The position numbers and the translations under genes are program-made. From Gordius sp. MW1 (taxonomy: Eukaryota; Nematomorpha; Gordioida; Gordea; Gordiidae): DNA of 64,000 bases. The stretch spans positions 19,654,001 to 19,718,000 of the forward strand of contig OZ038526.1 of assembly GCA_964036665.1 (NCBI GenBank). Reading direction: 5' to 3'. Shown here piece after piece: positions 1,861-51,935 of the stretch (position 1 is its first letter; each line of letters starts with the position of its first letter). The notes under the pieces are model-generated. The model was given only the letters and a program-made list of their open reading frames with translations, had not been told where the DNA came from and searched no databases.

Positions 1861-2741
1861 TTTATTTTATAATAACTTTTTTTAAATGGTTTTAATTATT
1901 TTTGGGCAATTCATTACATTAGTTGAGCTTGGGTTCAGATATGATGCTCTTTTATATTTTTATATTTACTTTAATTTGTCATTAGATGTTCAACCTCCTT
2001 TTTATACATTTTTTTCCTAAATTTAAAGTATTTTTTTAAATTGAATTGTAACATCCAAATTAAAAATATACATTTTATTATGGTAAAATTTTTATTTTGA
2101 CCAATAAACCTGGAAAATAACTATTTATTTTTATTTTATATTAATAAAATAAGTAAAACAAACTAAAAAAAAAATTAAGTACCTAAAAAGATCTTTATAC
2201 TGCTCATTAAATATTGGTCAATTTCTTATTTAAAAAATCTACCTTAATAATTTTATGTTTTAAATTGTCAGTTGAAAATAAAGTTGATTTTTATAAAATA
2301 AATTTTAATTTAATTTATAAATTTATATTTATAGAGTACATGATAATCAATATTCAAAAATTGCACATCATATCAATAGTTATAATAATAAGAAAGATAT
2401 TAGCCAAAATAAAAAGTCTTCCTCTTCTAAGAAAAAACAGTCAATATTAAATTTTAGTCAAAAAACAATATTTTGATATATCATATAATATAAATAAAAC
2501 GTTTTGATAAAAAAATATGATTTTTGTTTCGTGAACCTTCTAAAAAAATGAAAATCAAAGGAGCGGTTATGGAGCGGCACTCCATTAGTTGGAGTGGGAG
2601 AGCTCCTTTTAATATGTAGTGGAGGGAGCGGGAGTCGCTACTTTTAAAAAGGAGCTTTAACAAGACTCTAAACATTGACCTAAGATAAATATTTTTAACT
2701 TAATTATGTTTTAGCACTTTGTCTTATATGTTTTTTACATA

Positions 2742-3999
2742 TCTTATATATAAAAATGAAACTATGTATGTATATATATATACATGCCGCCACCAATTTT
2801 GAAGAAATACCGGACCGATTTGGCTCAAAATTTCACAATTTATTCCCCAAACTCCGGAGCATGTTTTAAGATTTGTTCGAGCCAAATCGGTTCAGTAGTT
2901 TTCGAGAACGGTTAACGGTGACAACATAAAATTTATCAATTAAACCTGAAATAAATAAAATTTCTCTCATTCTTGGATAATTTTAATTCTTTTTTCCATG
3001 GCTTAAAAAGTAATTATGAGATTGTATATATATATATTTTTTAAAAAGATTTCTAACGTCAGTTTTTTATATGTTCAAACTTTATTTTCAATTTTCAGTT
3101 AAATTTACATACTATGATACATCGATCTTAGCTTTCCCTGGTACACTATCGCGTCTAAACCTAACAAAGGGCTTCGAGAATGTAAAAGCTACAAGTTTAA
3201 AAGTTTCTAGAATAAATATATTCTCTACACTTATTTGATTAGCGTTAAAATTAATAAGTTTTACAATACCCAATTAATATAATTGAAAATATTTCTAATT
3301 ATCAAATATGAAAATAACGTATAAAGGGCTTTAATCAAGGTGAATTTTTTTAAATCCTGATAACAGAGCAATAAATAGATTTCTAATATATTTTGTAGTT
3401 TCAACGATGAATTCTTAATATTAATACATGTTTAATTGTTTCTACATGTCACCTTGCATAATGGTCAAAATATTTTTAATGAATTTTGTAGTTCTAAAGA
3501 TGAAGTCTTAATATTATTGCATGTTTATTTGTTTATTTTTTTGTTTAAAGAATTTTTAAGGTTAATATACAAATGCCAAAGCGAAAAAGAAATTTTTTTA
3601 AATCCCGATAACAGAGCAATTAATAGATTTCTAATATATTTTATTTCTAATTATCAAATATGAAAATAACGTATAAAGGCCTTTAATCAAGGTAAATTTT
3701 TTTAAATCCTGATAACAGAGCAATTAATAGATTTCTAATATATTTTGTAGTTTCAACGATGAATTCTTAATATTATTACATGTTTAATTGTTTCTACATG
3801 TCACCTTGCAAAATAACGTATAAAGGCCTTTAATCAAGGTAATTTTTTTTAAATCCTGATATCAGAGCAATTAATAGATTTCTAATATATTTTGTAGTTT
3901 CAAGATGAATTCTTAATATTATTACATGTTTAATTGTTTCTACATATCACCTTGCAACGAATGTACATATAGCAAAACAACGTTTGCCGGGTCAGCTAG
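2742..3999 (+). mobile_element. Helentron/Helitron-like non-autonomous element
   Basis: The left end reads TCTTATATATAAAAATGAAAC, followed by a module ending in AAATCGGTTCAGTAGTTTTC. The right end is GCCGGGTCAGCTAG followed by T. This pattern (TC/TATATATAAAAATGAA start, CTAG-T end, no inverted repeats, internal minisatellite) is typical of non-autonomous Helentron-like elements in arthropod genomes. No Rep/helicase frame is present. The family assignment rests on remembered end motifs, not on a search. Confidence 0.6.
3295..3960. repeat. Minisatellite, about 150-165-bp unit, 3-4 copies
   Basis: Units share AATAACGTATAAAGG(G/C)CTTTAATCAAGG, a segment TAATAGATTTCTAATATATT, and end at TGTCACCTTGCA. 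Copies run from ~3300, ~3650 and ~3813. A partial copy at 3590-3660 is also present. The array lies inside the Helentron-like element. Confidence 0.8.
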
Positions 4000-4205
4000 T
4001 AAGATATAAAATTTAAATTTTAAATTTATTATAGATTAAAAATAAAGCAAACTTACTATAAATATTTATTTAATTTAATTTTTAAGGAGGAAATTGAGAT
4101 TTGTTGTTTTGTTTTTAAATGCCACCATTTTGTAACATATTTCTTTTGTAAGCGATGTGGCGTGACTGACATTTCACACAGAAAAGATAGAAGTAGCTAG
4201 ATACA

Positions 4206-4385
4206 AATACAAGCCTTTATTACGCTCTACCCTAAGCTTTAGGTTAGTCTACAAATTTTGACCTCAAGGTTTGAGGTTTATATTGACTTATAACCTCGAG
4301 GTAGAGGTTACCGTTTTTAAAAGACCTCAAAGGTACTTTGAAAAGCCTAACCTATTTGGTTAGATAAGATCAAGTAATTTTTAAA
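4206..4385. repeat. Inverted partner of repeat 961-1178
   Basis: Contains CCTAAGCTTTAGG and AACCTCGAGGTAGAGGTTA, matching the reverse complement of the 961-1178 block with moderate divergence. Confidence 0.45.
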
Positions 4386-4484
4386 TTTCAAATTTAGGTA
4401 TAAAATTATTCAATATTTTAATACGAATATAAATTAAAGTAAGATATATTATTGTTAAAGTTGCTGTTTATGATAATGACATAC

Positions 4485-4930
4485 TTTCGTGTCTTTCACA
4501 ATACTGTCCCTCGTGACCTTTTTTACACGAACATTTGCCGAGTGAATCACAAGTTTTTTTATCGGAACCAAAGGGACTACAATCGCATCCTTCAGATTGG
4601 GTTGAATAAAAAATTTAAAAACATTAGTAATTGCCACTTTATAAGTGCCCTAGCTAGATTCAGGTATTATTCTTATAACCTACCCTATTTAAATGTATTG
4701 AAAAGCCATCATAATTAGTTTATCTTTAAAGGATGGACAAACATAAATTATTTAAAGTGATTGGATTAAGCTCAAAGATTTTACCCTTAGTTTTACATTT
4801 GTCTTTATAATCAATTTAATGACTCTTATTAATGTTGCTAAGACTGTTGCCAAATTATTATTTAAGATAAGGTCATTTATATTACTTTCTTCACATTTAT
4901 GTCCATACGATCCATCAGGACAGAAATTAT
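4485..4930 (-). CDS. EGF/laminin-EGF-like protein, two internal exons (partial gene)
   Basis: Two minus-strand exons join in phase. Exon 4886-4930 (45 nt) follows an acceptor ending TTTGTAG and encodes FCPDGSYGHKCEE. Exon 4485-4589 (105 nt) follows a pyrimidine-rich acceptor ending CTGAAG, encodes CDCSPFGSDKKTCDSLGKC then SCKKGHEGQYCER, and ends at a strong donor GTATGT. Both exons are phase 1-1, the usual arrangement for EGF modules. The Cys spacing (CxC, x8, C, x5, CxC, x8, C) fits a laminin-type EGF repeat, as in MEGF/Draper-like or matrix proteins. No signal peptide, membrane segment or further modules were found nearby, so the rest of the gene must lie across large introns or outside the window. 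The host protein cannot be named. Confidence 0.55.
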
Positions 4931-15708: not shown

Positions 15709-17220
15709 CCCTCGAGAGCATTCCTGAAAATCCCGAACGCGAGAGCATTCGTGGGGTATATTTGACCCCATTTTTTAACTTCTTATAACTATCGAACTAA
15801 ATTGAAATTATCTGAGAATTTAAATATATGTTTGTAAAAGACTCTTAATTGATGGTATAAATTTTGATAAATGATTAAACAATATTAGAAAAATTGTTAA
15901 CATTTTTCTGAAGTCCTATTTTTTTTAATTTTAATGCCTCGCCTCATTGTACCTCTTAACATCATATACCAAGAAATGAATCAAAATTAAAATGATTTTT
16001 GATTAAAAGAAAGTCGGAAAGGCATAAAAAATACAATTGCACAAACATATGATGATATAAAAAAAATACAAACATTTAAGAAGTAGTTAAATTTTCCATA
16101 TACAATTTTCACAATACTTTCATGTGGCTTGAGCAAACAAATTTGGAGCAATTTTTACAAGTTAGTTTGGTTTTTTTATCTTGGTTTCTTGTACAAAAGG
16201 TACATCTCTTTTTAAGTTTTTGGGAGGAGATTCATCCCTTATGTTGAGGATTTTTTTGATAGACTCCTTGATATCCCTAGGCATACGCAAATTATTTTTA
16301 AGTCTACGTTCCAAGTATGGTTTGGTTAACTTGTACTTTTTTGGTATATAAGATATCATTGTTAAGATTTCTTGAAAAACAAATGTGCTTGACAATACAG
16401 GTTTATTTTTTATTTGACAAAAATCATGAGGAATTTGTCTTTTGTTTTTCTTCAAGGTGCCAACTGAAGTTAGTGAGTAGTTTAGCAATAAATGTTTTGT
16501 CAGTTCAAAACTGGTGAACCAATTATCCATAGTTACATTTCTATTGTTTGGGAAATTGGCTTGATTAGTCTGGAAACTACATCAAAGGGCTTATTGCTAA
16601 GTTTATACGGCCCTTCTGGCTGAACTCCTGTGTACATTTCTAGATTTTTTACATAAAAAGTTTTAGCATCCACCAAAAAATATATTTTTAAGCCATATTT
16701 GGATGGCTTATTTGGCATATATTGTTTAAATGGACATTTGCCACAAAAGCAGGGAGCATTTCATTAACAGTGACATATTGACTAGGGGAGTATGTAGCCT
16801 GTAAATTTATATTGAATAAATCGAATATACGCCATATATGTGTGGCCTTGTATCACTCAAATCAATCTCTTCACTCTCTGTGTCATGTTCACTTGTTAAA
16901 ACAATATCTTCCTCACTTGAACTTACATTATCATGTATAGTGATATCAAAATAATTAATTTAATTATATATATATATAAGTCAAAATTTCCTCAAAATAT
17001 ATTTCAAAAAAAAATTACGTGAGAGCATTCGTGGGGTACACAAGACCCCTGTGGCCAAAAAGATGCTATATTTTAAAAAGTAGTGGGCCAAAAGTTGTAA
17101 ATTTTTCCTCAAACTTAGTTCCTGGTAAAATATTAGGCTACTGAAAAGGCTAGATCGATTTGCTTTTAAACGCGTTTTATATTTAAGTTTATAACTATCG
17201 TGGGGTCCCACTCCCGAGGG
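15709..17220 (-). mobile_element. piggyBac element PB1 (1512 bp) flanked by TTAA
   Basis: TTAA lies at 15705-15708 and 17221-17224. The ends are CCCTCGAGAG and (reverse complement) CCCTCGGGAG. Subterminal blocks with GAGAGCATTCGTGGGGTA occur near both ends (~15740 and ~17020) in the same orientation. A transposase remnant is on the minus strand. The length is well below a full piggyBac, so an internal deletion is likely. Confidence 0.9.
16109..16935 (-). pseudogene. piggyBac transposase, deleted and frameshifted
   Basis: Read on the minus strand, the order is: an acidic N-terminus (SSSEEDIVL near 16920); a TVNEMLPAF segment near 16770; NKPSKYGLKIYFLVDAKTFY (about 16660-16715); DNWFTSFELTKHLLL near 16520, the canonical piggyBac DNWFTS motif; VGTLKKNKRQIP; the C-terminal KPYLERRL and MPRDIKESIKK segments; and a Cys-rich tail TCKNCSKFVCSSH ending at a stop at 16109. 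The tail lies in a different frame from the body, a stop and frame break occur near 16530, and the catalytic region between the acidic and DNW blocks is shortened. The element is non-autonomous now. Confidence 0.8.
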
Positions 17221-26046: not shown

Positions 26047-29000
26047 ATGCAGAAATATAAAACAACGGCTAACATCGACGCTTTTAGAAAACAATTTGAG
26101 CTATTCCTAAGGAGCAATAAGACGGAGACAGATGAGCAAAAAGCAGCTCTATTATTAACCAGCCTTGATGGGGAGGCATTCCAATTAATACTAGAGGATT
26201 ATAGACCGCAAGAGTTGACAGGAATTACATATGAAGAAGCTAAAAATCGGTTAAAAAAATTATTCCAAAGGAATTCATGCGCGAGGGCAAAGAGGTATGA
26301 ATTCTCAAAGGTCCGACAAGGCCAGAGAGAGACGATAGACACGTAAGCTAATAGACTCAAGGCCGGAGCTAACAGCTGCAACTTCGGAAACGAAGAATTG
26401 CAGAACAGAATCGTAGACCAATTCAGTATAGGATTGCGAGATAGAAGCTTACAGGCGAGACTGTTAGCAGAAAATGACATCAAATGGGACCGCCTACGCG
26501 AGCTGGCGTTAACGGCCGAGACGATACACGGGGGGTTAAGCACTTTGCAAGACGGGTCCGAAGAGGCGTGGATCGTAGTGGCGGGACGAGAAGCGTGGCC
26601 TGGGCCGGTCCGAATTCCCAGGTTAAAACATGCTTTAGATGTGTTAACTGTAGATATATATATTAATAACGAATTATTCCAATGCATCTTCGATACCGGC
26701 GCCACGGTATCGATAATACCGGCGCGAAGATGGGCGAAGGAGATCCCACGCAACAAAGGACGGTGTACGCGTACGGCCACGAGGAAATAAAGATCGTAGC
26801 CAAGGTGCAAGCTGCTGTCCAAATGGGGGACATGAGAAAACAGCTATCGTTATTGATAGCAGCGTAGCTGGGCCGCCGTTGTGTGGGATCGATTGGATCC
26901 AAGAATTTGAGCCCGAAATTTGGCGACGAATTCGTTGGAACTCCAGAGCTGCGGCGAAACGGTTCGCGGTAAATTACGTAGAAAGACCGAAGGATTCCAA
27001 GTCCGCGATCCGGGACGTGATGAAGCAATGGGAGGGCCAGCTAAACAAATTTTCAAAAGCAGTCAAGGGAATAACGGTGGAAGTACCGTTAAAAGAGGGC
27101 ATGGATCCCGTATTTATCCCCGCACGAACGGTGCTGATGGCGTGGAAGAAAGAAGTAGAAGAAGAGCTGGACAAATGGGTCAGAGACGGGGTGATAGAAC
27201 CGATCGATTTCTCAAGATGGGCCAGTCCAGTGGTACCCGTGAAAAAAAGCGATGGGACTCTTCGGTTATGTATTGATTACCGGTTTACTATTAACAAATA
27301 CGCTCAAGGATTGTTGTACCCCTTACCCAAAATCGACGATTTGTTAAATAAACTCGATAACGCGTGTTGTTTTACTAAGCTGGATCTAACGAAAGCGTAC
27401 TTACAACTCGAATTAGGTCCAGAAACGAGTCAACGATTGACTATCTCCACACACAAGGGCCTATTTAAAGTTAACCGAATGCCTTTTGGCTTAAATTGCG
27501 CCGCGGCGATATTTCAAAAAACAATGGATCAGATATTAGGAGGCATGGAGGGGGTAGCGGTATACATTGATGATATACTAATCGCGGGGAAACGGAAGAA
27601 ATCCACAACGAGCGGTTACTCAAAGTACTAGAAAGGTTACAAAAATGGGATTTCGTGCCAAACATTTCCAAGAGCATCTTGTGGGCGAAGGAAGTAACAT
27701 TTTTGGGATATGTAATAAGTAACAAGGGAATTTAAATCAACGACAATAAAGCCGAACTGGTCAAGCAGTGGAAAAATTTAACAAACAAAAATGAAATAAA
27801 ATCGTTCCTGGGGTTAACAGCATATTTTTCAACGTTTATTAAGGACTACGCCAAAATCGTGCACCCGATTCAGAAACTCATGAAAAAAAACGGGCTGTAC
27901 CACTGGGGTGGAGAACAACAAGACGCATTCGAAGCCATCAAGTCCGCGCTTACTAAAGCCCCCGTACTGGCATACTTCAATGGAGATTGGGAGACTGGCC
28001 TGGTCGTAGACTCCTCTGGTACAGGGTTAGGGGCCATCTTACAGCAACGAGCACCAGAAGAGAATTGGAGAGTGGTGGCCTATGCTTCAAGAGCGTTAAA
28101 CGATAGCGAAAGCCGGTATTCGACGATCGAACGAGAGGCCCTTGCGGTGGTTTATGGACTAAAAAAGTTCAATGAATATATACAAGGACGAAGCGTTACA
28201 ATCATGACGGATCATAGACCCCTAGTATATATATTCGATCAGAGCAAAAGGGGCAAGGAACAATGGTCACCACGTCTAACTAGGTGGGCGCTCTTGGTAT
28301 CAGGCTACACGACCAAGTTTGTGTACAACAAGGGATCTGAAAACGCGGCAGATTTTTTGTCTAGAAAACCGAACGAAAACGCGTATCAGGTTAGCGAGGA
28401 AATGCCAGAAGACTCGACGAATCCGTTTATATCATTGGACGTAGTAAGACAACACACCTTGGACGACCCGGGGCTGCGACAATTAAAAGAGTGGATTGGA
28501 GGTAAACAAAACACAATGGTCGCGTATGGGCTAAAACGCTCCTACGAAAAACACCTGCCAAAGTTACACGAAGCCAAAAGCATAATATTTTACAAAGGAC
28601 GAAGAATATTAATTCCGGCTAAGTTACGAGGAGCGGTACTCCAAAGATTACATAGGGGCCACGTGGGTATCAAGCGGATGCAAGAAGTGGCGGGGCAGTA
28701 TATGGTGGCCTACTCTCGACGATGACTTATTGAGCGTAGCGAAAGGGTGCCGGAATTGCAAATACACTGCCGCGGCGGCGAAGAAGGCACCGTTGATAGA
28801 GTGTCAACCTAGCCATAAACCGTGGGTTCAAGTACATATCGATATCATGGGTCCTTTCAAGGGTAAGTCATACCTGGTGATGGTGGACAATAGCTCGAAA
28901 TGGGTAGAAGTGTTTAAATTAGAAGACACCACAGCGACCACCATTATAAAAAAACTTGCCGAAACGTTTGCTAGATATGGAAATCCGCCATGGTTAATAT

Positions 29001-29250
29001 CAGATAACGGCCCGCAATTAGGGCAGGAATTACAGAATTTTTGCAAGATGAGAGGGATTAATCAGCGATGGACAGCTCTTACCATCCTGCGTCTAACGGT
29101 CTGGCAGAAAGATATGTACGATTAATTAAAGAAGCCATTATTAGAAACGAGTCGAAAGTAGGGCTAAGTAGATTTTTAGAAACTATAGATCTACAAAACA
29201 CCCCACAACCAATAAAAGCCCAGCAAAGGTGATGCTAAAAAGGCGTATGC
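26047..29250 (+). pseudogene. Degenerate gag-pol of gypsy element 1
   Basis: Order of remnants: Gag from the ATG at 26047, with a nonsense codon at 26344-26346 after which the same frame continues; a partial zinc knuckle (CFRCVNC) in another frame near 26635; a protease FDTGATVSIIP near 26690-26720; reverse transcriptase 26879-27630 with RMPFGL and the catalytic YIDD near 27562; RNase H 27990-28370 with VDSSGTG and TDHRP; an integrase zinc region RGHVGIKRM...CRNC near 28650-28760; and catalytic segments HIDIMG and ISDNGPQ. The last integrase acidic residue lies in another frame near 29100. At least five frameshifts and two nonsense codons (26344, ~27732) make it inactive. Confidence 0.85.
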
Positions 29251-29717
29251 GAACCGAATGGGAGGTATTGAGGGAAACTGTACCACAACAATGGGTAGAG
29301 ACCGGGAACCCGCGGATGTTCAACGTAGGAGACTTGGTTTGGGTACATATGTTTTTAGGACCAAGCAAATGAGTAGAAGCACGATAAAAGCCAAGCACGG
29401 TAGTCGGTCCTACGATGTATGGGCACAGGGAAGAAAACACCACCGACACGTGGATCAAGTAAGGAAACGGAAAATCTTGGATTGGACCACACTGGGACAA
29501 GAGAACGGGTGGCCGCAAAGGATATCATCAGAAAGGGAAGCGGGAACAAGTGCTATAAGGGAACAAATGCAAAACCAGTCAGGAACGCCCAGAGAAGAAC
29601 CTAGAAGTGAACAAATTCAAAAACAGTCAGGAACGCCTAGAGAAGAACCTAGATACCCGCAGCGTAGTCGGAAACCGCCAGCATTCCTTACGGATTGTCT
29701 GTGAAAAGGGGGGGAAC

Positions 29718-34934: not shown

Positions 34935-35074
34935 TGTTTTCGGGGGAGCTGATTTTTTTTCTCCCTCCCCCTTAAAAATTCATATTCTCCTAAATTAAAA
35001 ATTCATATTCTCCTAAATAATAAATTCATATTCTCCTAAATAATAAATTCATATTCACCTAAATAAAATACCAC

Positions 35075-35902
35075 ATGGATACACAATCGTCTGACAATTC
35101 AACTCTCTACAATGAGACAGCATCCAACACTCCCACCACGGCAAACACATCACCAGTATACATCAAGCTACCTACATTTCACCTCAGAAACATCCAAATC
35201 TGGATAGCTCAGGTCGACGCAATATTTTCCACTAGGAAAATCACATCACAAAGAGTCAAGTATGCTTACCTTTTAGAATCTCTCCCGGTTGAGATAGCCG
35301 AAGAAGTGGCCGACCTTATACTTAACATCCCAGATGAAAACCCTTATGAGGTGTTAAAGCAAGACTTAATCAAAAGAATGGGTGAGAGTGAAGCAAAAAG
35401 AATAGACAAGCTGTTCAAGGACATATATTTGGGAGACAAAACACCGTCCCAATTGCTTAGGCATTTGAAGAGCCTTGTCGGGGAACATCAAATGAGTGAT
35501 AAAATTTTAAAAACCCTTTGGACACAAAAACTTCCAAGGGAGGTAACAGGTATCTTAACATACGTAGGAGAAGAAAAGTCTCTGGCACAGTTGGCTGAGG
35601 TGGCAGACAAAATCTACGAGACATATACGGCCAACAGCGTAGCTTCCATAGCAAGCCCTCAAATGAGCCAAACAAACGAAGTCCAGGAACTGGTAAAAAT
35701 GGTCGCACAGTTGGAATTGAAAGTAAACCAGCTGGTCAATCAGCCACCACAAAGTAGAAAGGTTTGGAGATCCTCAAGATCACGGTCAACATCAAGACAC
35801 CGTCGGGAAGAAATTTGTTGGTATCACCACAAGTTCAAGGGTAACGCTCAAAAATGCACACAACCATGTGCATTTACCTCTAACTCCCAGTCAAAAAACT
35901 AA
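35075..35902 (+). CDS. Gag-like protein of gypsy element 2 (CHCC type)
   Basis: A 275-residue frame starts at the first ATG downstream of the primer site. The centre (about residues 30-200) is a retrotransposon capsid-like region: YIKLPTFHLRNIQIWIAQVD near the start, and a hydrophobic LxxLPxEVA pattern near residue 70. A basic Arg/Ser stretch (KVWRSSRSRSTSRHRR) comes near residue 230. It ends with a zinc-binding-type CWYHHKFKGNAQKCTQPC, i.e. C-x2-H-x9-C-x3-C, in place of a CCHC knuckle. The frame is intact and ends at TAA, with pol resuming in the same frame immediately after. That raises readthrough, or an inactivating stop, as possibilities. Confidence 0.8.
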   Translation: MDTQSSDNSTLYNETASNTPTTANTSPVYIKLPTFHLRNIQIWIAQVDAIFSTRKITSQRVKYAYLLESLPVEIAEEVADLILNIPDENPYEVLKQDLIKRMGESEAKRIDKLFKDIYLGDKTPSQLLRHLKSLVGEHQMSDKILKTLWTQKLPREVTGILTYVGEEKSLAQLAEVADKIYETYTANSVASIASPQMSQTNEVQELVKMVAQLELKVNQLVNQPPQSRKVWRSSRSRSTSRHRREEICWYHHKFKGNAQKCTQPCAFTSNSQSKN

Positions 35903-38900
35903 CTGACCTTTCCATTCAGGCGACTTCCGGAAACGGTCATAAACCAAGTCGCCTATTCTACTTTTGATCGTACGTCAGGACATAAGTTTTTGATTGACAC
36001 AGGAGCTGACGTGTCCATCATTCCAAGACCCGTCAACTCACCTAAGGTACCAAATGGTCCAGTATTGCAGGCGGCCAATCATAGCAATATCTCTACCTAT
36101 GGACAAAAGATGTTGTCCATCAATCTAGGTCTGAGACGCCCAATACAGTGGTTATTTCTGATCGCCGAGGTACACACCCCTATCATTGGAGCCGACCTCT
36201 TGCACCAATACAACATCATAGTAGATGTCAAAAACCAGCGATTAATTGATGGTCTGACTCACGTAACTTCAAAAGGAATTTCCACCCATCATCAAACGTT
36301 AGGAATCCGCATAGCTCTCTCGAGTCAGGACTCTAAGTTGGAATCTGTGATCAACAACTTTCCATCACTCCTAACTCCTTTAAATTTCACCCAACAAATT
36401 TCAACCAACGACATCTTTCACCACATAGCAACAAAAGGGCCGGCACAATACGCACGTCCAAGGCGACTTACTGCTGAAAAACTTAATGTTGCTAAGAAAG
36501 AATTTGAATATATGTTGGAACTGGGAATCATAAGGAAATCTAAAAGCAACTGGGCGGCACCACTACATTTGGCTGCTAAAAAATCAGGTGACTGGCGTCC
36601 GTGTGGAGATTTTAGAGCCTTGAACAAAGTCACCGTACCAGACAGGTACCCAATTCCTCACATTCACGACTTCACAGCTAACCTTCACGGAAAAGCAATT
36701 TTTTCTAAGCTGGATTTAGTTAGAGCCTACCATCACATTCCGGTAGCGCCGGACGACATCTGTAAAACAGCCGTGACGACACCATTCGGTCTTTAAGAAT
36801 TCACGAGGATGCCGTTTGGTCTAAAAAATGCAGCCCAAACGTTCCAAAGATTCATAGACGAAGTTTTGCGAGGACTAAATTACGCCTACGCGTACATAGA
36901 CGATGTACTTATAGCAAGCGGCTCAGAAGAAGAACACGAATCTAAAGACCGTCTTGCAACGACTCCAAAAGTACGACCTCAGGATCAACCCTGCAAAATG
37001 TCAATTTGGAGTGCGAGAATTAGAGTTCCTGGGTCACAAAGTTTCGGCCGCAGGTATTATTCCGTTACCAGAGACGATTGAGGCTATTAAAAACTTTGCA
37101 ACGCCAGTTTCATGTAAACAACTCCGAAGATTCTTAGGCATGATCAACTTCTATCGAAGATTTCTGCCCAATATTGCTAAAACCCCATCCGTTGACAGAC
37201 ATACTAAAGAATCCGCAAAAATCTATAGCGTTCAACAAACTGCAGGAAGAAGCCTTCGACCCAGCAAAATCCGCTCTAATCAATTTTACCAAGCTAAATT
37301 TTTTGAATACCAGTCCAGAAACCCAAATTACACTAACAACAGACGCCTCTAATTCAGCAGTCGGTGCGGTATTACAACAAACAATGGCCGGAGAGACTAC
37401 ACCAATAGCGTTTTTCTTTACTAAGCTTCAGCCAACACAATCACGATACAGTACATTTGGTCGTGAGCTTCTCGCCATTTACCTAGCAATCAAGCATTTT
37501 CGACACATCCTGGAAGGCCGAATATTTACCGTGTACACCGACCACAAACCACTCACATACGCCTTTGACGCTAAGCCTGATAAGTACTCTCCGAGAGAGA
37601 TACGACAGCTCGACCTAATCTCACAATATACCACTGACATTCGCTTCATTAAAGGCGAAGGAAACACAGTAGCAGATGCTCTATCTCGGATAGGAGTAGA
37701 CGCGGTAAATCTTCCAAAAATGCCAGAATTAGACGACATTAGCAAGCACCAAAAAAACGACAAGTCTTTGGAAGGTTTAGAAGATACTACTTCACTAAAA
37801 CTACAAGTATTACCCATCCCAGGGTCAGATAACAAAATCCTTTGCGATTTGTCGACTACTAAACCTCGACCGGTCATACCTGACGCACTGAGGAGAACAG
37901 TTTTTGACCATTTTCACTCGTTATCACACCCAGGAGTTCGATCCACCCTAAAGCTCATCACTAGTCGCGTAGTCTGGCCATCTATCAACAAGGACGTCAC
38001 TAACTGGGCAAGAACATGCATAAGATGTCAACGTTGTAAAGTACACCGACACACCATTACGAAACCAGGTACTTTTAAACAACCCGATGCCAGATTCGCT
38101 CATGTCCACTTGGATGTAGTAGGACCACTACCACCCTCCAACGGGTTCACTCACATGCTAACGGCAGTTGACCGTTTCTCGGGATGGCCCATGGCCATAC
38201 CACTTAAAGAAACATCCGCCGAAGTTATCGCGGACAAATTTATCAAGAACTGGGTGGCAAATTATGGGGTTCCGAGTACAGTTACCACAGATAGGGGATC
38301 CCAGTTTCAGTCACAGCTTTTTAGAGAGTTCGAGAATATTTTAGGATGCGAACACATTAAAACTACAGCTTACCACCCGTCCGCGAACGGGGTAGTCGAA
38401 CGTTTCCACCGGCAGTTAAAGACTTCGTTAAAAGCCTCAGGAAACACAAAATGGGGTGAAGTTCTGCCCTTTGTCCTATTAGGTATCCGCACAACCATCA
38501 AGGAAGACATTGGTCGCACACCGGCGGAAGTGCTATACGGGACTAACTTAAGTCTCCCAGGAGATTATTTCTCACAAGAAACAACGCAACAATCAGCAGA
38601 ACAAGTACATCAATTCGTCGAGAAGTTGAGAGAAGCGATGATGGCGTCGCCGTACCCCGTGCCACACCACCATGGCGAAACAAAAGAACAGGTAAATCGG
38701 TACCTGTGGGAAACACCGCAAGTGTTTGTCAGAAATGATACAGTACGCAAACCTCTCACTCCACCCTACGATGGGCCCTTCAAAGTCTTACTTCGTAGAC
38801 CAAAGTACTTTATAATCGAGAAAAATGGAAAAAAGGACTCCATATCAATCGACCGATTGAAGCCCGCTTATGTAGAAAGCAAGAAACCGGTACATAATCA

Positions 38901-39018
38901 AGAAACCTCCCTCAAGAAACCTATTTTACAAGAACCAGAGCAGGAACAACAACCAGTCAAAACCACTTGCAGTGGCAGACATGTCCATTGGCCCAAAAGA
39001 CTTTGCCAATACAAGTGA
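35903..39018 (+). pseudogene. Pol of gypsy element 2 (PR-RT-RH-IN), broken
   Basis: Protease [12 protein letters not shown] is at ~35984-36020. RT starts near 36450 and continues with [26 protein letters not shown] and the catalytic YIDDVLIA near 36893. RNase H includes TDASNSAVGAVL near 37350 and TDHKPLTY near 37538. Integrase has an H...H...C-x2-C zinc region ending CIRCQRC near 38020, catalytic HLDVVGPLP (~38107), TTDRGSQF (~38288) and the Glu in SANGVVERFH (~38385). The RNase H-integrase frame (37174-39018, 614 residues) is uninterrupted. Upstream are a nonsense codon at 36794-36796 inside RT and frameshifts near 36950 and 37175. The copy is therefore predicted inactive unless those are assembly errors. 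Confidence 0.85.
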
Positions 39019-43723: not shown

Positions 43724-46090
43724 TCACAGTAATATAATATAAATACATGAAATATAAAAGACAAAAAGCATCAAATAAAATGATAAACTATTCTGATATA
43801 GCATCATCGAGGGGATCTTCCAAATTGGCCAAGAATCCGCAAACGATTTAAAATTGTACTTGGCTATAAGAATACCAAGTCTTTGTTTCAGTAAAAAGGA
43901 TACCAAATGTTTAGACGGGGGAGAACGTCTTCCTACCTCTTTAAAAAAAGCTAAAGCCTGTTTGCCAAAGGTGCTTGAACACGAAGCAACCAATGGAATA
44001 AAAATGTTTGAGGATAATAGGGCTTTGTATTTATTTGTTTTCCGCCCCTCTGCAAATTCTAAAAAATCATTGTTGTAGTTACAGGGGGCAAATAGTCAAT
44101 ACATGTGAAGTCCCATTTAAGGTGAAGACCATTGCTCCATGGGACTAAAGAAGATCCATCAAAACGCATACGTCCCTCCAAGGAGGGGTCCGATGGCTCC
44201 AAGATGGATGGGATCTTTGCCCTCTTAAGAACACTTTGAATTAGGACATTGGCCTTATTGTGTCCAACATATTTGAATTTGTTTGCCAGGCAATGTAAGG
44301 GATGCCTGGCTTGTTCGTCTACAAGTATGCTACAATTTCGGCAAATAAATGGCTTCGAAAATTTCACCCCTAGTCTGAGAGCTATGGAGTACAAAAGTTC
44401 CGAGTCCTCCAGCATCATCCCGGAGAGACAGCTTGGGTAGACCTCTAGCCATTCGTGACCTGAGCCATCAAACAAAAACGATCTTAAATTAGAACACTGA
44501 CTTGCATTGCTACTCGAAATTAGGTAATCAACGGAGCGCAACACAAGTCCGGCATCCAAATCTCTTTGTCGTGAAGTTTGTGGCAAAGGTGTTCCGGGAT
44601 TGGTATTGTTTTCCCGAATAGCTAAAGCAATGGGTAAAAGCGGGTCTTCTTTAACCGGATACAACTTAAAAATGTTATCTTGTACGGATTTGTAAGATGA
44701 AATAAATGAGACTAGAGATATTGAGGCAGGTGAGCGAATCCCCAAACCACCCGATTTGGTTGGTAGGGAAGCTTGTAACCAGCTATGAGTATTGAATTTT
44801 ATATTTAAAATAGATTGCAAAATAGATTTAATATTCTGTTCGAAGAGGTTTAAAATTTCCGAGTGTAATAAGCACTTGAAGAGCGAAAACAGTGCTGAAT
44901 TTTTGAAATATTAAAATAGTTTTTTATTATATAAAAATTTTGAGTTTAAAATAGGGAGATTTTTATCCAAATAAGGTGCGAGTTCAACTCTACCGCCTAT
45001 AGGCGATCCAAGATGGCACATAGCGTCTTTCTTGATTGCTAAAAAAGGGGTAATGTTGGGATATAACGAGTAGTCAGGGGGTTGAAAGATCTCACATTTG
45101 ATCTCGTTGAGTTTTAATTTTAAAATTGGTTCGAAATCTTTTATAATTTTGATAGCTTTAAAAACTTCGCGAGGATGACCATAAAGGGTGGCATCGTCCA
45201 AGTACCAAGTATTTAGTGTTAAGTCGCATTCGTGAGATATTTTTTCAACTAATCTTTGGATACCTGAGCAAAATAATGGCGGAATCAATGGATCAACCTG
45301 TTGGATACCTTCAGATGAATTTATTTTAAAATCCCCAAATCTTAAAAAAGATGTTGAGCCATAACTTAGTAAGATGTAATTATGGAACTCTGGAAAATTC
45401 TGGAGAAAATTTTTCATAAGGACATCTCTACGAATGCAATTAGCGTTGGCAAAATCTAATTTGACCATGCAATTATCCGATGGTATGGCTTCGAGGGCTA
45501 GCCTAGCGGCATGACTAGCGGCTTCGCAGCCTCCCTTTATTCCAAAACCTAATTGATGTGGACTTAGGTTAGTGGAAAGAATCGGTTGAATTTTATTGTA
45601 TATTTTCTTAGAAATAATCCTCCTAAAGACTCCCCCAATAGCGATAGGTCTTAGGGAATTATCTTGCTTCTTAATCGCTATCAATTTGGCGCCAAACAAA
45701 ATAGGTATTATTTCATGGGGTACGTTCCCATTGACAATAAGGTTCATAAGATGTTATGGCCTTTAAGAGGCATGTTGAGTTTATGTTATTAATTTTAAGT
45801 AAATCTTGGAGATATACAGGGCGGATTCCGTCTAGGCCGGCTGCAGAATCTAGGGGAAATAAGTTAATGGCTTCAGCGACCTCGGCGGAATCTAAGGATA
45901 TGTTGGATTTAGAGTGGGGATATTTATCTGAGGATGACGAAGGAGGATATTTTAATATAAGCTGGTTGTAAGTTTCCTGTGTGCTTGGGGCGATTGTATC
46001 GTTGCCATAAAACACCCTCAGAGCTCCTTTTGGATTAAAATGATTAATTTTGCTGGATACAAGCTTAGCAGTATGTTTCAATGATGATGC
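43724..46090 (-). pseudogene. Non-LTR (LINE-type) reverse transcriptase, 5'-truncated and broken
   Basis: On the minus strand: an upstream AAGLDGIRPVYL (about 45825) leading into the fingers; LRPIAIGGVFRRI near 45640; motif A KLDFANANCIRRD near 45450; EGIQQVDPLIPPLF near 45290; the catalytic motif WYLDDATLYG near 45190; LPTKSGGLGIRSP near 44760; and a C-terminal Cys-His region CRNCSILVDEQARHPLHC near 44290. A tail continues to 43724 in another frame. One in-frame stop (44911-44913) separates RT from the C-terminal domain, with frameshifts near 45740 and 44060. No endonuclease domain is seen. A CGCGTTACGCGC-rich block lies just beyond the truncated 5' end at ~46105. The clade cannot be assigned by eye. 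Confidence 0.75.
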
Positions 46091-46204
46091 AAAAGCAGGT
46101 TTTGCGCGTTACGCGCTACAACTTCAAGCCCGCAATTTTTTTTCTGTCCAAATACGCGCTTCACGTTTCATGGATACAATTACTTTATTAATCTTTTTAC
46201 ATGT

Positions 46205-46773: not shown

Positions 46774-46986
46774 CTAGAGAGATATGAGATATTTGTTCAT
46801 ATACCAATAATTTATATACTTTATTGATATAAAATAAAAGTTTTGTAAAACATTTATTAACAAAAATTTATTGGGATCAGATAAGGCTTTAAAATCTTGA
46901 AGAGAATCAAGGAATGTCTTTTCCAGATCCTGAGAAGTTCTTTGCTTCTCTGTCTCTATGTCTATTTTCTTCAGAGTGTTTTCCAT
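46774..46986 (-). CDS. Small ORF with BESS-motif-like segment
   Basis: A 70-residue frame whose middle reads LEKTFLDSLQDFKALSDPNK, resembling the BESS motif (xFLxSLxPDxKxLxxxxK) at the C-terminus of many MADF-domain proteins and some Harbinger-associated proteins. No MADF or SANT domain is found upstream. The P element starts 80 bp beyond its start codon, so upstream exons, if any, would be displaced by 4.6 kb. It may be a fragment or chance. Confidence 0.3.
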   Translation of the reverse strand: MENTLKKIDIETEKQRTSQDLEKTFLDSLQDFKALSDPNKFLLINVLQNFYFISIKYINYWYMNKYLISL

Positions 46987-47065
46987 TTAGTTTTGCAATA
47001 ATCCACTTTTAAAGTAGTATTTTAATTGATACTAGTTACCAGCCAAGTTGCATTATGTGGCCACC

Positions 47066-47101
47066 CATAGACTAAGAATAACATAGACCGCCGAACAGCT
47101 G
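47066..47101 (+). repeat. Left terminal inverted repeat of P element (transposase 3' side)
   Basis: 36 bp, beginning CATAGACTAAGAATAACATA and ending CAGCTG. It matches the right repeat except at two posit­ions near the inner end (offsets 27 and 30). Confidence 0.95.
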
Positions 47102-47485
47102 ATAATTTGCGAGCAACTTTAGAAGCCGCCATAATTAGTACCTTAACATTTATGTTTATGAACTCAACGTGTTCTATTGCGTTATATTTTATCGCGTTTT
47201 TTAAAATTTAAAAATTAACTGAATACTTCATAACAAAAACTTTTAGTAAATAAAAAAATATATGTTAGGCAAAGAAAAAATACTCCTATAATAAAATTTC
47301 AAAAAAAAGTTCAAAGAAATAATTAATAAGTAACACTTTAGAATGATAAAGAGAAATAACATAATAGCGCCATCTATAATATATTTTATTTATTATATTA
47401 AGTTACAATTTTACGATACCGGGCATCATCAAAGTTTCGCATGTGAGACTATATTAATAAATTAATTAGTTGTCAACAAAAAAAA

Positions 47486-50400
47486 TTATTGCCCTTTAAA
47501 AATAATAGTTTTATTAAATTTCTGCCTAATATTAGTTTTAAATTCTTGGTTTGAAATATTGCAAAAATTATGAAGTAAAATTTTGCTATACATATTAATT
47601 ATTAATTTAACCAATAATTGTAAATGATTTAAGGATCCTAACTCTTGGTCAACAATATGATTAATTAAAGATGCAAAAATATTAGACCCAATCAATGAAT
47701 GAAAAACCTTAATTTCAATTATAAATAAAATGTTTTTAGAAAAAAGTTTATTTTTATGTTTTAAAATTCTAAAAACTGTCTCAGTTTTTTTGCAGATATT
47801 TACAACATCAGTAGACGGGACAACTAATCCACCTTTGTTTTTTAAATTAATCAATAAATAGTTTGAAGATGAAAATGGTTGACAACTAATTAAAGAATTT
47901 ATACAAATCTTACATGTTACTTTTTTGCGCAAAATCATTTGCCTCACAATGTATCCGCCAATGTATGAAGAAATACATGAAATATAGGGAGAAATTAAAT
48001 TAATATTTATATTGGCCTCGTCTTCTGTTTCAGTAAACTCTTCATTAATGTCTATGAAATTTTCATCTGCAATACAAGTAGAATCTTGTGGCGAGCAGTT
48101 TCCAGAAAATGGATAATAGATTTTTGATAAAAAAATTTTATTCAAAGAGTGACGCAATTGCATTGCCGAAGGATTGTTGTTGTGGCAACCTCGGGCCCTG
48201 AGTAACCCAAAAAAACTTTCCAGGTGATCCTGGGAAAGTTTATAGGTTAATAAAAATCTAGATATTATATAAATAATAAATATTTATAATATATTTACTT
48301 TAAAGGAGGTTTGGTCTCGATCAAGAGATCATGTGCAAGCATTTGAATTGCTTGCATATCTATTAACATTCCTAATATACCTATTTTTTTATTTGATTGA
48401 ATAACTGGCATTCCATCTGGAAGGCACAAAGTTCGAAAATATTTTGCACAATTATCATAGAATTCATTAAGGTTAGCTAAAGAATCCTTGTATATAGGTT
48501 TTTTATTCCCTTTATGTAGAGCATTCCGTGAATTTAGTGTATCAAACAATCTTAAAGATAACTTAGTAACAAACTAGTAAACATACTGATTCATTATATG
48601 AATAAACTCGATAGTCGCCTGGCAATCCTTAAACAAGAGAGGATCTATATGCCTCGCAAAATCCATAGCATTTGCGACAGATTCCGAAAACAGCTGAGCC
48701 GCTAATTTCACCTTTAATAATTGCATATAAATGATATAATAATAAACCTTCATTCTTTGATTATGAAAATAGACGTGTTCTTTGGTAAGCTTGTTTGCTG
48801 CCCTCAGACCTTCATGTTGTTGCAAATCATACAACCTAACAATGTATTTCCATTCGATTCTCTATCAAACATACATTATAATATTAAAAATATTAATCAA
48901 CCTTTCCCTCATAATTCACAAGATAATCTACCCTTTCAAATAAATTTCTGACAAGTTTGAGCATATGACATGCATCAAACATAAAATATATTTTTTCCGT
49001 GACGCATGTGGGGTTTGTAAAATATGGGCGAAGGGATTCAACCTCAAAAGATACCTATTTATGTATTTTAGTTTTACAAAAAAATCAGATAATGTATCTT
49101 AAAAATTGACATGTTAAGGATTGAGATGTAATGGTAAAATTTATTATAATTGACATTTCCATCTATTTAAATATAAACAATAAATATAAATCAAGTTACA
49201 TTTAAGGCTTAGTTTTATTTTATAATACTAATAGATTGTTTAAATAAATTGCATACCCCCAGATTTTCTGCCATTCTCTTGTTGGCTGCTAGACCATCGC
49301 AAGTTAAATTTTTGCAAATGACTCCACATTCTTTAAGTAGCTGAAGTGCATCTAATACAAGGGTTGCTTGTAGGTCAGCAGTGACACTACCCACAAGAAA
49401 ATATCCAAGGGGTATCTTCCAGTGACTATTAATGGCAACTGCCATAATAAATAGTGCACTTTTGGCCTCTGGCAATAAATTTGATTGAATACCTTGCCCC
49501 ACATCTACACACCTATAAATTAATTTAAAAAAAAGTAAGTCACTAATACCCTTCAAAGCCTTTTTTGTAATCGAGATGACGTCTGATGGCCATCTCATCT
49601 AATGTAATTGATATATATATCTGCCCTGTTTGCTTTCTTTGTAATTGTTTAATTGTGAAAAAAGCTTGTTTTAAAAATCCTAAAATAAATAATATAGATT
49701 ATAAAATTTTTTTTTATATATTATACACATAAAGGATATATAAATTGTTAGTGTACCTGGTTTTATGTTTTCATTGACACACCATTTCCTAATCGTACTC
49801 TCTGTTGGCATACATATTACACTCCGAATAAAGTTGTAGGCTTGGGGTGAGTAATAATGAAGGGTTATTGCAAATCTTTTCATTTCATCAGAATAAGCCT
49901 TGTTGAAGGGATTATTAACACCTCCAGAGCTTAAGTGTGTATTTAGTATAGAAGTGAGAGGAGTATCACCAAAATAGTTTGTAATAATATCACCCCCCTC
50001 TCCTGGAATTAAGGATTTTTTATCAAGATGAGCAGCCAGGTCTTTTAGGGTCTTGAGTTTCTGAATTTGGCGATAATTTTTACTTCTTAAATTTTTGACA
50101 GTTTTTTTTAAATGCTTTATGAGATTTTCTTTCTTTTTTTCTTTTAGAGTATTAATAGCATATGAATGATCCTTTTTTACTAAATTAAATATTAAAATTT
50201 ATAAATTATATTTACTTGTATTCAAAGTTTTGCATAATGTTGTTATATCAATTAATGCTGAATTCTGGGATGGCTCAATATTTCCTTGATGAATGTCTAA
50301 ACTAGAAGCTGATGACTGATTTAGGTAATTCATATTGAAATATAAAAATTACAGTCAATGAAATCTCAGATGGCTCTGCATTTTTTTGATGAAATTTTCA

Positions 50401-51575
50401 AAATTAAATATGGATATAAACGAGGCTTGAACCTACTAACTATGTTTTCTATTAATATTAAAAAGTTTATTGTAATTAGGCATTAAGAAATGTTAATAAT
50501 TTAATAACATTGAAAAAAATGCATAAAGGCAAAAAAAATTTAACCAATATCTAGATTATCATCTTATTTGAGGATGGGCACTAAGTCCATCGCAAAAAAA
50601 TAATTTGATTTGGCAATTGCAATTGATTGACTGAGTAAAAAGCTATTGGAAATTTTGCTTGGAGGAGACCTTGTGTTAATTTTAAAAAAAAACCATAAAA
50701 AACTTAAAAGATTCTTCCCAAATGTCCCTAAGCATTAAGAGACAATGGGAATAAAACAAGAAGTTTCTAAAATGATGTCAATTAATATTAAGGTAGTGGA
50801 GGACATGTGCTATTAGTGGGAACATCTTCCCTAAAAAAGGACGTTTATTCATATTATAGCCATGTTGTAATCAACAATTCTTTTTGTGACACATAAAGGA
50901 ATAAGGCTAGGACAATATATAAATGATATAATATTCCAATGTTATTCAAATATAATTGTAAAAAGCCAAGCTTCTTCTATATTCAGTGATTAGTTGCATA
51001 TTCATAACATTAAGGAATATAAATTATTCCAGCATTTAGTAAAGATAAATTTGTAATACAAATTTGGAGCATTTGAAAACCTTAAAGTCTAACCAAAGAG
51101 ATGACTCAAGATTATTATGACACGACCCCATATATAGAGAATATCAAAATTAGTTTTAAGTTCATCTTAAAATTTGTTTTACTTATACTAAAGGAAAATG
51201 TTTGATTAATAATTGAAGGAGTATAAACAAATATTATTTACCTTTGTAGATGGATAATTTGATTCTTTGTCTATGTTTGTGATATTATGTAATGGGGATT
51301 GAATATTTTCTTGATGAATGTTTATAGGGGTTAAAAATAGAGATGGTACTATATTTTCTTTTAATCTTTTTTTGTTGAAATCTTGTGGTTGAAAGTGTTT
51401 GCTGCAAATTCTTGAATGCTTTTTTAGACGAAATTCAGGCTTCATTAATTTTAGCCATTTCACTAAAATATTTTCATTTTTGGGGTACCTAAAAATAAAT
51501 ATAAAAAAAACAATTTATTTACCTGTGTAAAGACACTCCTTTGCCTTTAGACTTACATATTGCACAATACCGCAT
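47486..51575 (-). CDS. P-element transposase (THAP9-like), 11 exons, 874 codons, apparently intact
   Basis: Exons, minus strand: 51523-51575, 51242-51488, 50216-50315, 49757-50179, 49550-49679, 49257-49512, 48902-49054, 48748-48861, 48587-48711, 48299-48550 and 47486-48257. All junctions are GT..AG, phases agree throughout, and the total is 2625 nt. The N-terminal THAP domain is split by a 34-nt intron: Cys4, Cys7, Cys46 and His49 (MRYCAICKS...RICSKHF). A Lys-rich coiled-coil region lies at ~135-175, then a P-specific block FAITLHYYSPQAYNF. RNase H-like catalytic candidates are Asp302 (LDEM), Asp390 (TCDGLAAN) and, after the insertion domain with FMFDACHMLKLVRN and LFDTLNSRN, Asp628/Glu631 (SQDHLE). 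The C-terminus has YIGGYIVR and CKIC. In P elements this protein binds subterminal DNA and catalyses GTP-dependent excision and integration. Human THAP9 is of similar length. Confidence 0.93.
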
Positions 51576-51658
51576 TATTTAAATAGGTACCTTATGTTGG
51601 CAACATGTCGGCAATGACATGTGCACGCGTATATATACGCATAATATATTGCTAGAAA

Positions 51659-51694
51659 CAGCTGATCAGCGGTCTATGTTATTCTTAGTCTATG
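51659..51694 (-). repeat. Right terminal inverted repeat of P element (transposase 5' side)
   Basis: Inverse of the left repeat. It lies 83 bp outside the transposase start codon (51575), so any promoter must sit in this short interval, as in known P elements. Confidence 0.95.
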
Positions 51695-51935
51695 TGGCCA
51701 CCAAACCCCAGGCTCATTCCATTCAATTATTCATGTGCCTTTCCACACTTCTTAATAATGTTTTTACTTGATCTTGTCTATCTATGTAAACATATTAGGT
51801 CACAGTAATAGCTTAATTAATAGCTTATAGCTTGTTGATCGCGGTTGATTTGATTAGGCAAAACTACAAAAATGACGTGACGCTCATATTAAGACGCGTC
51901 CGTATCGGTGCATTCGACCAAAGTTTAACTGACCA

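Follow-up and report, generated by a model that had tools for sequence, protein, structure and literature searches.

A recently mobile P-element family, represented by an 83-bp deletion derivative, in a gordiid-type horsehair worm

A 64,000-nt stretch of the Gordius sp. MW1 genome (contig OZ038526.1, positions 19,654,001 to 19,718,000 of the forward strand; the whole of it is called the window below) contains a P element of 4629 bp at 47066..51694, with its gene on the minus strand. We read it, with a probability of roughly 0.88, as an insertion that belongs to a recently mobile family of P elements in a gordiid horsehair worm and has lost 83 bp. The evidence for the family comes from anatomy and homology, from the number of its copies and their low divergence, and from target duplications and empty sites; it has moved recently and is no domesticated gene. 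An original prediction, made from the letters of the window, had described the element as a complete, apparently autonomous and recent P element outside any dipteran context, and most of its details have held, the important exception being completeness.

Thirteen insertions of a young family

The outer 26 bases of the two inverted ends of the window copy, CATAGACTAAGAATAACATAGACCGC, are identical, and a genome scan with this word, at up to two mismatches, returned 31 matches (23 exact, one with one mismatch and seven with two), against none for a backwards-pattern control. Of the seven ends with two mismatches, six have a variant, TAATAATAAC...TGC, that belongs to an older relative, and these were left out of the family count, which, from the end scan, local alignments and fetched ends, comes to 13 insertions: one each on contigs C1, C4 and C6, two each on C3 (where one lies inside the other), C5 and C7, and four on C8, including the window copy. 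Perfect 8-bp target duplications flank 12 of the 13, and the window copy differs from its 12 siblings by 1 to 14 substitutions in 2286-4629 sites, that is, by 0.03-0.32% (insertions and deletions, or indels, left out). The joined flanks of the window insertion have at least 40 genomic matches (40 of 72 candidates scored), and two fetched copies of this repeat, L069 and L070, have an empty site with a single TGGCCACC, together with small indels elsewhere within the 300 bp compared. In the original prediction the copy looked recent or selected, and a genome search for others with the same ends was suggested; low divergence, perfect duplications and two empty sites bear out its recent age, and the 13 closely similar insertions are the outcome of the search. 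On this reading the family may still be mobile at present and its protein active.

The siblings are of several kinds. Four are internally deleted (the nested copy of L046, L047, L048 and L049), and among the eight that are near full length the whole frame is kept in three (L039, L041 and L043), as scored with a 36-nt intron, described below, left in. L041 has its far end about 8.5 kb off; an insertion close to the 5' end has apparently split this copy, to judge from its end positions and 101 fetched bases of that end.

Some loci deserve mention in their own right. At L046 (G000:C3:19538938-19547259), together with L072, a deleted P copy lies inside a second P copy, and each of the two is flanked by a perfect 8-bp duplication (inner AATAGAAC, outer ATCGCTAG). 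L045 (G000:C7:4276565-4282033) contains an internal joint that is inverted; its left end is degenerate, and it is not flanked by a target duplication. The window copy itself sits within a dispersed repeat of at least 40 copies (flanks 46916-47065 and 51703-51852).

Ends and target site

The element is bordered by an exact 8-bp duplication, TGGCCACC, at 47058..47065 on the left and 51695..51702 on the right, and ends in terminal inverted repeats of 36 nt that are 94% complementary, the left one (47066..47101, plus strand) being the 3' end of the element and the right one (51659..51694, minus strand) its 5' end; duplication, repeat length and the run of 26 perfect outer bases are all as the original prediction had them. 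The end word of P elements of this family is CATAGACTAA, and the window element has the terminal inverted repeats with CA...TG ends by which members of the P superfamily, the fly P element included, are recognised.

The motif CATAGAC is present twice in the left terminal inverted repeat of the window copy, 16 bp apart. In L043 (L043:401-5096; G000:C8:2403915-2408610) one end begins at the inner CATAGAC and is 16 bp short, and both flanks carry the perfect duplication GGTAGTAC. It seems that here the transposase used the inner copy of the end motif, and an end shortened by exactly 16 bp next to a perfect duplication offers a small lead on cut-site choice by P transposase.

The transposase gene

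The gene model comprises 11 exons on the minus strand, which when joined again gave the predicted 2625 nt, open up to a single terminal stop and coding for 874 residues. Exon 1 (51523..51575) has the start codon and the first two zinc ligands of the THAP domain, C4 and C7, and exon 2 (51242..51488) has the remainder of this domain, with C46 and H49. Exon 3 (50216..50315), which corresponds to exon 4 in the siblings, is followed by exon 4 (49757..50179) with the P-type helix-turn-helix, and by exons 5 (49550..49679) and 6 (49257..49512) with the N part of RNase H, containing D302 and D390, respectively. The guanosine triphosphate (GTP)-binding insertion domain begins in exon 7 (48902..49054) and extends over exons 8 (48748..48861) and 9 (48587..48711), between which we place a 36-nt in-frame intron with GT-AG borders (48712..48747). 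After exon 10 (48299..48550), the gene ends with exon 11 (47486..48257), which holds the C part of RNase H with E631, the THAP9-type C-terminal domain and the stop. Introns are short, seven of the 10 being 34-41 nt long.

A 10-exon model of 886 residues, in which the intron 48747-48712 is unspliced, was dropped. The 11-exon model is preferred because splicing out these 36 nt raises the Pfam score of the GTP-binding domain from 129.7 to 148.4 bits, which argues for splicing of this intron, short of proving it. The window copy as a whole may be spliced in this way, and it may still make a working transposase.

Six Pfam domains, in the architecture of P/THAP9 proteins, are found in the 874-residue protein, which is what the profile check suggested in the original prediction was to decide. 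With a best expectation value (E) of 1.6e-43, and because there are 12 more family insertions in the genome, a chance match is excluded. The THAP (C2CH) domain (PF05485) scores 48.4 bits at residues 6-69 and keeps all four of its predicted ligands (C4, C7, C46 and H49), the P-type helix-turn-helix (PF12017) scores 62.1 bits, both parts of the split RNase H domain (PF21787 and PF21789) are matched with their D, D and E kept by sequence, the GTP-binding insertion domain (PF21788) is matched at 148.4 bits over positions 1-119 of 119, and the THAP9-type C-terminal domain lies just above its cut-off (24.8 versus 24 bits). When eight open reading frames were scanned singly, THAP, Tnp_P_element, RNase H N, GTP-binding insertion, RNase H C and THAP9_C matches were spread across seven of them, and the remaining frame, 50199-50348, had no domain match in this profile scan. 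Among solved structures, a Protein Data Bank search with the 886-residue version found the P transposase 6p5a to be closest (E 2e-19; residues 171-674 of that version aligned). The three acids that had been put forward as catalytic, D302, D390 and E631 (E643 in the 886-residue version), are at their predicted positions and stand opposite fly D230, D303 and E531 (counted along alignment rows), which are the catalytic residues of the fly P transposase (PMC7776569).

A near full-length deletion derivative

The window copy is an 83-bp deletion derivative, near full length and not complete, contrary to what had been predicted. At the junction 50393..50394 it lacks 83 bp that are present in 11 of 11 informative sibling junctions at 10 loci, as established by a genome DNA search and local alignments (L047 is uninformative, the region being deleted there); the join has 0 bp of microhomology. 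In the siblings, these 83 bp contribute a CAG acceptor (3' splice site) and 49 nt from the beginning of a 90-nt exon in phase 0-0, whose start resembles that of the following exon. What is left of this extra exon in the window is a remnant of 41 of its 90 nt at 50353..50393 (minus strand), with the 3' splice site deleted. The sibling L039 (4712 bp), for which alone a 12-exon splice was built, reads as 12 exons and 904 residues. Since two siblings separated from it by few substitutions, L048 (1 in 3165 sites) and L044 (3 in 4594 sites), both retain the 83 bp, the loss is recent and specific to the window copy. A search with the 904-residue protein did not detect the extra exon in the 13 loci of this genome that it covered, this linker being short and fast-changing and several of the loci perhaps not spanning it.

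Does the loss matter? The frame stays open when the phase 0-0 exon is skipped, so the window copy may still encode a protein shorter by 30 residues, and it could even be that the copy is fully autonomous, the 83 bp being intronic or dispensable. We regard this as possible, if doubtful: the 2625-nt frame is open without the 83 bp and a 90-nt, phase 0-0 exon can be skipped with the frame intact, but the missing segment includes the 3' splice site together with 49 nt of open sequence that is in frame and resembles the start of the next exon, and relatives only 1 to 3 substitutions away still have it, which makes its loss recent. Given the 83-bp deletion, the description of the copy as apparently autonomous is thus unproven.

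Older relatives and what weighs against this reading

The family has older kin in the same genome. Compared with five in-genome relatives, about 75-80% identical, the ratio of non-synonymous to synonymous substitution rates (dN/dS) is 0.131-0.160, with dS at 0.66-1.00 (Nei-Gojobori counts with Jukes-Cantor correction, ungapped codons only). These values show purifying selection on the protein in the past of the lineage, as distinct from the window copy itself; the relatives have decayed. In the longest relative, L019, the gaps in the aligned part are intronic, except for two in the last exon, of 6 nt and 1 nt.

Other P sequences are numerous as well. THAP-domain matches number at least 146 (150 of 194 candidates scored), a count of exons that may include other genes, in which this domain also occurs, and GTP-binding-domain matches number 59 (83 of 83 candidates scored), which again are exons rather than elements. 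One family, about 1.46 kb long and internally deleted, has at least 29 copies including L062, with an identity of 94-100% across most of the query (from 40 scored out of 188 candidates). Because of these many matches, of the deleted family of L062 and of the derivative L060/L061, P elements are best regarded as long resident in this worm lineage, the window family appearing as a young burst or a later arrival. The L062 copy itself (about 1217-2676) has THAP, helix-turn-helix and C-terminal pieces without a catalytic core, and is non-autonomous; it has inner inverted repeats 50-60 bp from its ends and a TTATATAA duplication. L060:50-1867 is an internally deleted P derivative of 1818 bp, 97% alike to L061, with stops in the THAP part.

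Several observations count against the reading given at the outset. The 83-bp deletion could lower or abolish the function of the window copy, cryptic splicing could break its frame, and the absence of the 83 bp may be an assembly error. Stops or frameshifts are present in five of the eight near-full-length siblings (one stop in L040; frameshifts in L042, L044, L045 and the outer copy of L046), and one of the 13 insertions, the C7 copy L045, is rearranged and without a target duplication. In the codons compared, the five older relatives have 1, 1, 1, 5 and 2 stops, and each of them except L019 is gapped in several exons. Finally, a word search against 500 shuffles found no clear subterminal inverted repeat in the window element, the best shared word being an A-rich one of 12 nt, and words of at least 12 nt occurring in 26 of the 500 shuffles.

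Alternative origins

Mantid genes have reportedly been transferred to a hairworm. The P family itself might be a recent arrival that the worm received horizontally from one of its arthropod hosts. This would agree with the very low divergence between the window copy and its siblings, with a parasitic life in arthropods, where the P superfamily is reported to be widespread (PMC6327564), and with the standing of P elements as a classic case of such transfer (PMC5791352). We nevertheless consider it unlikely, since the resident relatives at about 75-80% identity (dS 0.66-1.00) and the other P lineages mean that a burst of a resident lineage suffices. One scan of viral contigs, as a possible vector, with one exon found no relative. 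More speculative still is the combined proposal that the family entered the horsehair worm from its arthropod host and is jumping now, with the inner CATAGAC usable as an alternative end 16 bp in; if true, a host-to-parasite route for P elements would have been caught in progress.

That the gene is a domesticated THAP9-like host gene is very improbable, and was rejected on its ends, duplications and copy number: the just-sufficient score of the THAP9-type C-terminal domain and the purifying selection between relatives would fit it, but inverted ends, target duplications, 13 dispersed insertions, empty sites and internally deleted copies do not, and human THAP9 is described as being without terminal repeats or multiple deleted copies (PMC7776569).

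The host

The non-dipteran context that had been predicted is confirmed by TTAGGG arrays at four of six fetched contig ends and by a nematomorph mitochondrial genome. A fly host is rejected on these ends, since flies are not known to have TTAGGG at theirs. At the start of C4 (L052) and the end of C8 (L055), a GTCCGTTGTCC-like short-unit satellite is found instead of TTAGGG.

Contig C12 (14,798 bp) is mitochondrial. Read by eye, its codons are consistent with the invertebrate code, with AGA at positions for serine and AAA at positions for lysine that we take to be conserved; on the mitochondrial code, too, a flatworm, a cnidarian and a tunicate were rejected as hosts. A polydesmid millipede, considered on account of an inverted gene block, was rejected as well, its published gene order being different. 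Its genes, assigned by eye from translations and transfer RNA predictions (the places of ribosomal RNA genes being deduced from gaps), run cox1 cox2 K D atp8 atp6 cox3 G nad3 ... nad4L nad4 H nad5 F, followed by W, nad2 and M on the other strand, nad6 cob S2, and then L1, V, nad1 and L2 on the other strand. For the assigned genes this order agrees with that given for Parachordodes, Gordionus and Gordius (PMC10380579), and C12 keeps nad6-cob, unlike Chordodes (PMC10380579). C12 also has 39 perfect inverted repeats, some overlapping, of at least 15 nt within 300 nt, against 0 in each of 20 single-base shuffles, and 'coding palindromes' in mitochondrial genes have been described for Nematomorpha (PMC6649704). 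Because both gene order and coding palindromes match, the host is, by its mitochondrial sequence, a gordiid-type horsehair worm. Of the 24 COX1 matches, 23 are on contigs other than C12 and are probably nuclear copies, one of them nearly full length (C8:2829490-2830827).

Elsewhere in the window, long open reading frames at 26347-29704, 35063-39018, 44059-46108 and 16162-16581 resemble, by eye, two Gypsy-type retroelements, a non-LTR (long terminal repeat) reverse transcriptase and a piggyBac-type fragment.

How the element would work and why it matters

In the working that we propose, the spliced transposase would bind the ends of the element through its THAP and helix-turn-helix domains, the split RNase H domain (D302, D390 and E631), with its GTP-binding insertion, would cut the element out at the CA/TG ends, and the excised element would join elsewhere with an 8-bp stagger. 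Internal deletions, which fly P elements have too, would then arise and give shorter copies, the window copy being a mild case, in which the loss of 83 bp took away an acceptor and slightly more than half of an in-frame exon that looks duplicated.

A search of the open literature (titles and the starts of abstracts, among the matches listed) found no report of P elements in Nematomorpha, and to judge by these searches the phylum is a new host for the superfamily. As far as they go, therefore, a textbook transposon superfamily gains a host phylum, in an animal that lives inside arthropods. With a young family, readable siblings, deletion derivatives and older relatives all in one 12-contig genome, this worm is a ready system for asking (i) how P elements cross phyla and (ii) how deletion derivatives take over.

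Comparison with known P elements

Set beside the Drosophila melanogaster P element, whose transposase is 751 residues long, the hairworm element has a longer protein (874 residues; 904 in a sibling), 11-12 exons, short introns (seven of 10 at 34-41 nt) and no clear subterminal inverted repeat that we could find. Domain order and the three catalytic acids are the same as in fly P (6p5a/6pe2), which likewise makes 8-bp duplications (PMC10983969), and its ends are 31 bp long (PMC7776569) versus 36 bp here.

The original prediction had called intact P elements best known from flies, which is fair, and one source does describe the superfamily as mostly restricted to the genus Drosophila (PMC5791352). 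In contrast, Anopheles P elements are on record (PMC1562414), one arthropod survey lists the P superfamily with those that it found in every species (PMC6327564), and THAP9 genes and P-like elements are reported from vertebrates, including an active system in zebrafish (PMC7776569, PMC10983969). A non-fly context alone is therefore no surprise (arthropods, PMC6327564; zebrafish, PMC10983969). The zebrafish Pdre2/THAP9 P-like elements resemble the hairworm family in being non-insect, in their 8-bp duplications and in having internally deleted copies (PMC10983969, PMC7776569); they differ in their ends, which are 13 bp with 12-bp subterminal repeats, and in that their activity has been demonstrated in zebrafish, whereas the hairworm element is known from sequence. 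The P elements of arthropods, finally, belong to the same superfamily as the hairworm element and to a different phylum (PMC6327564).

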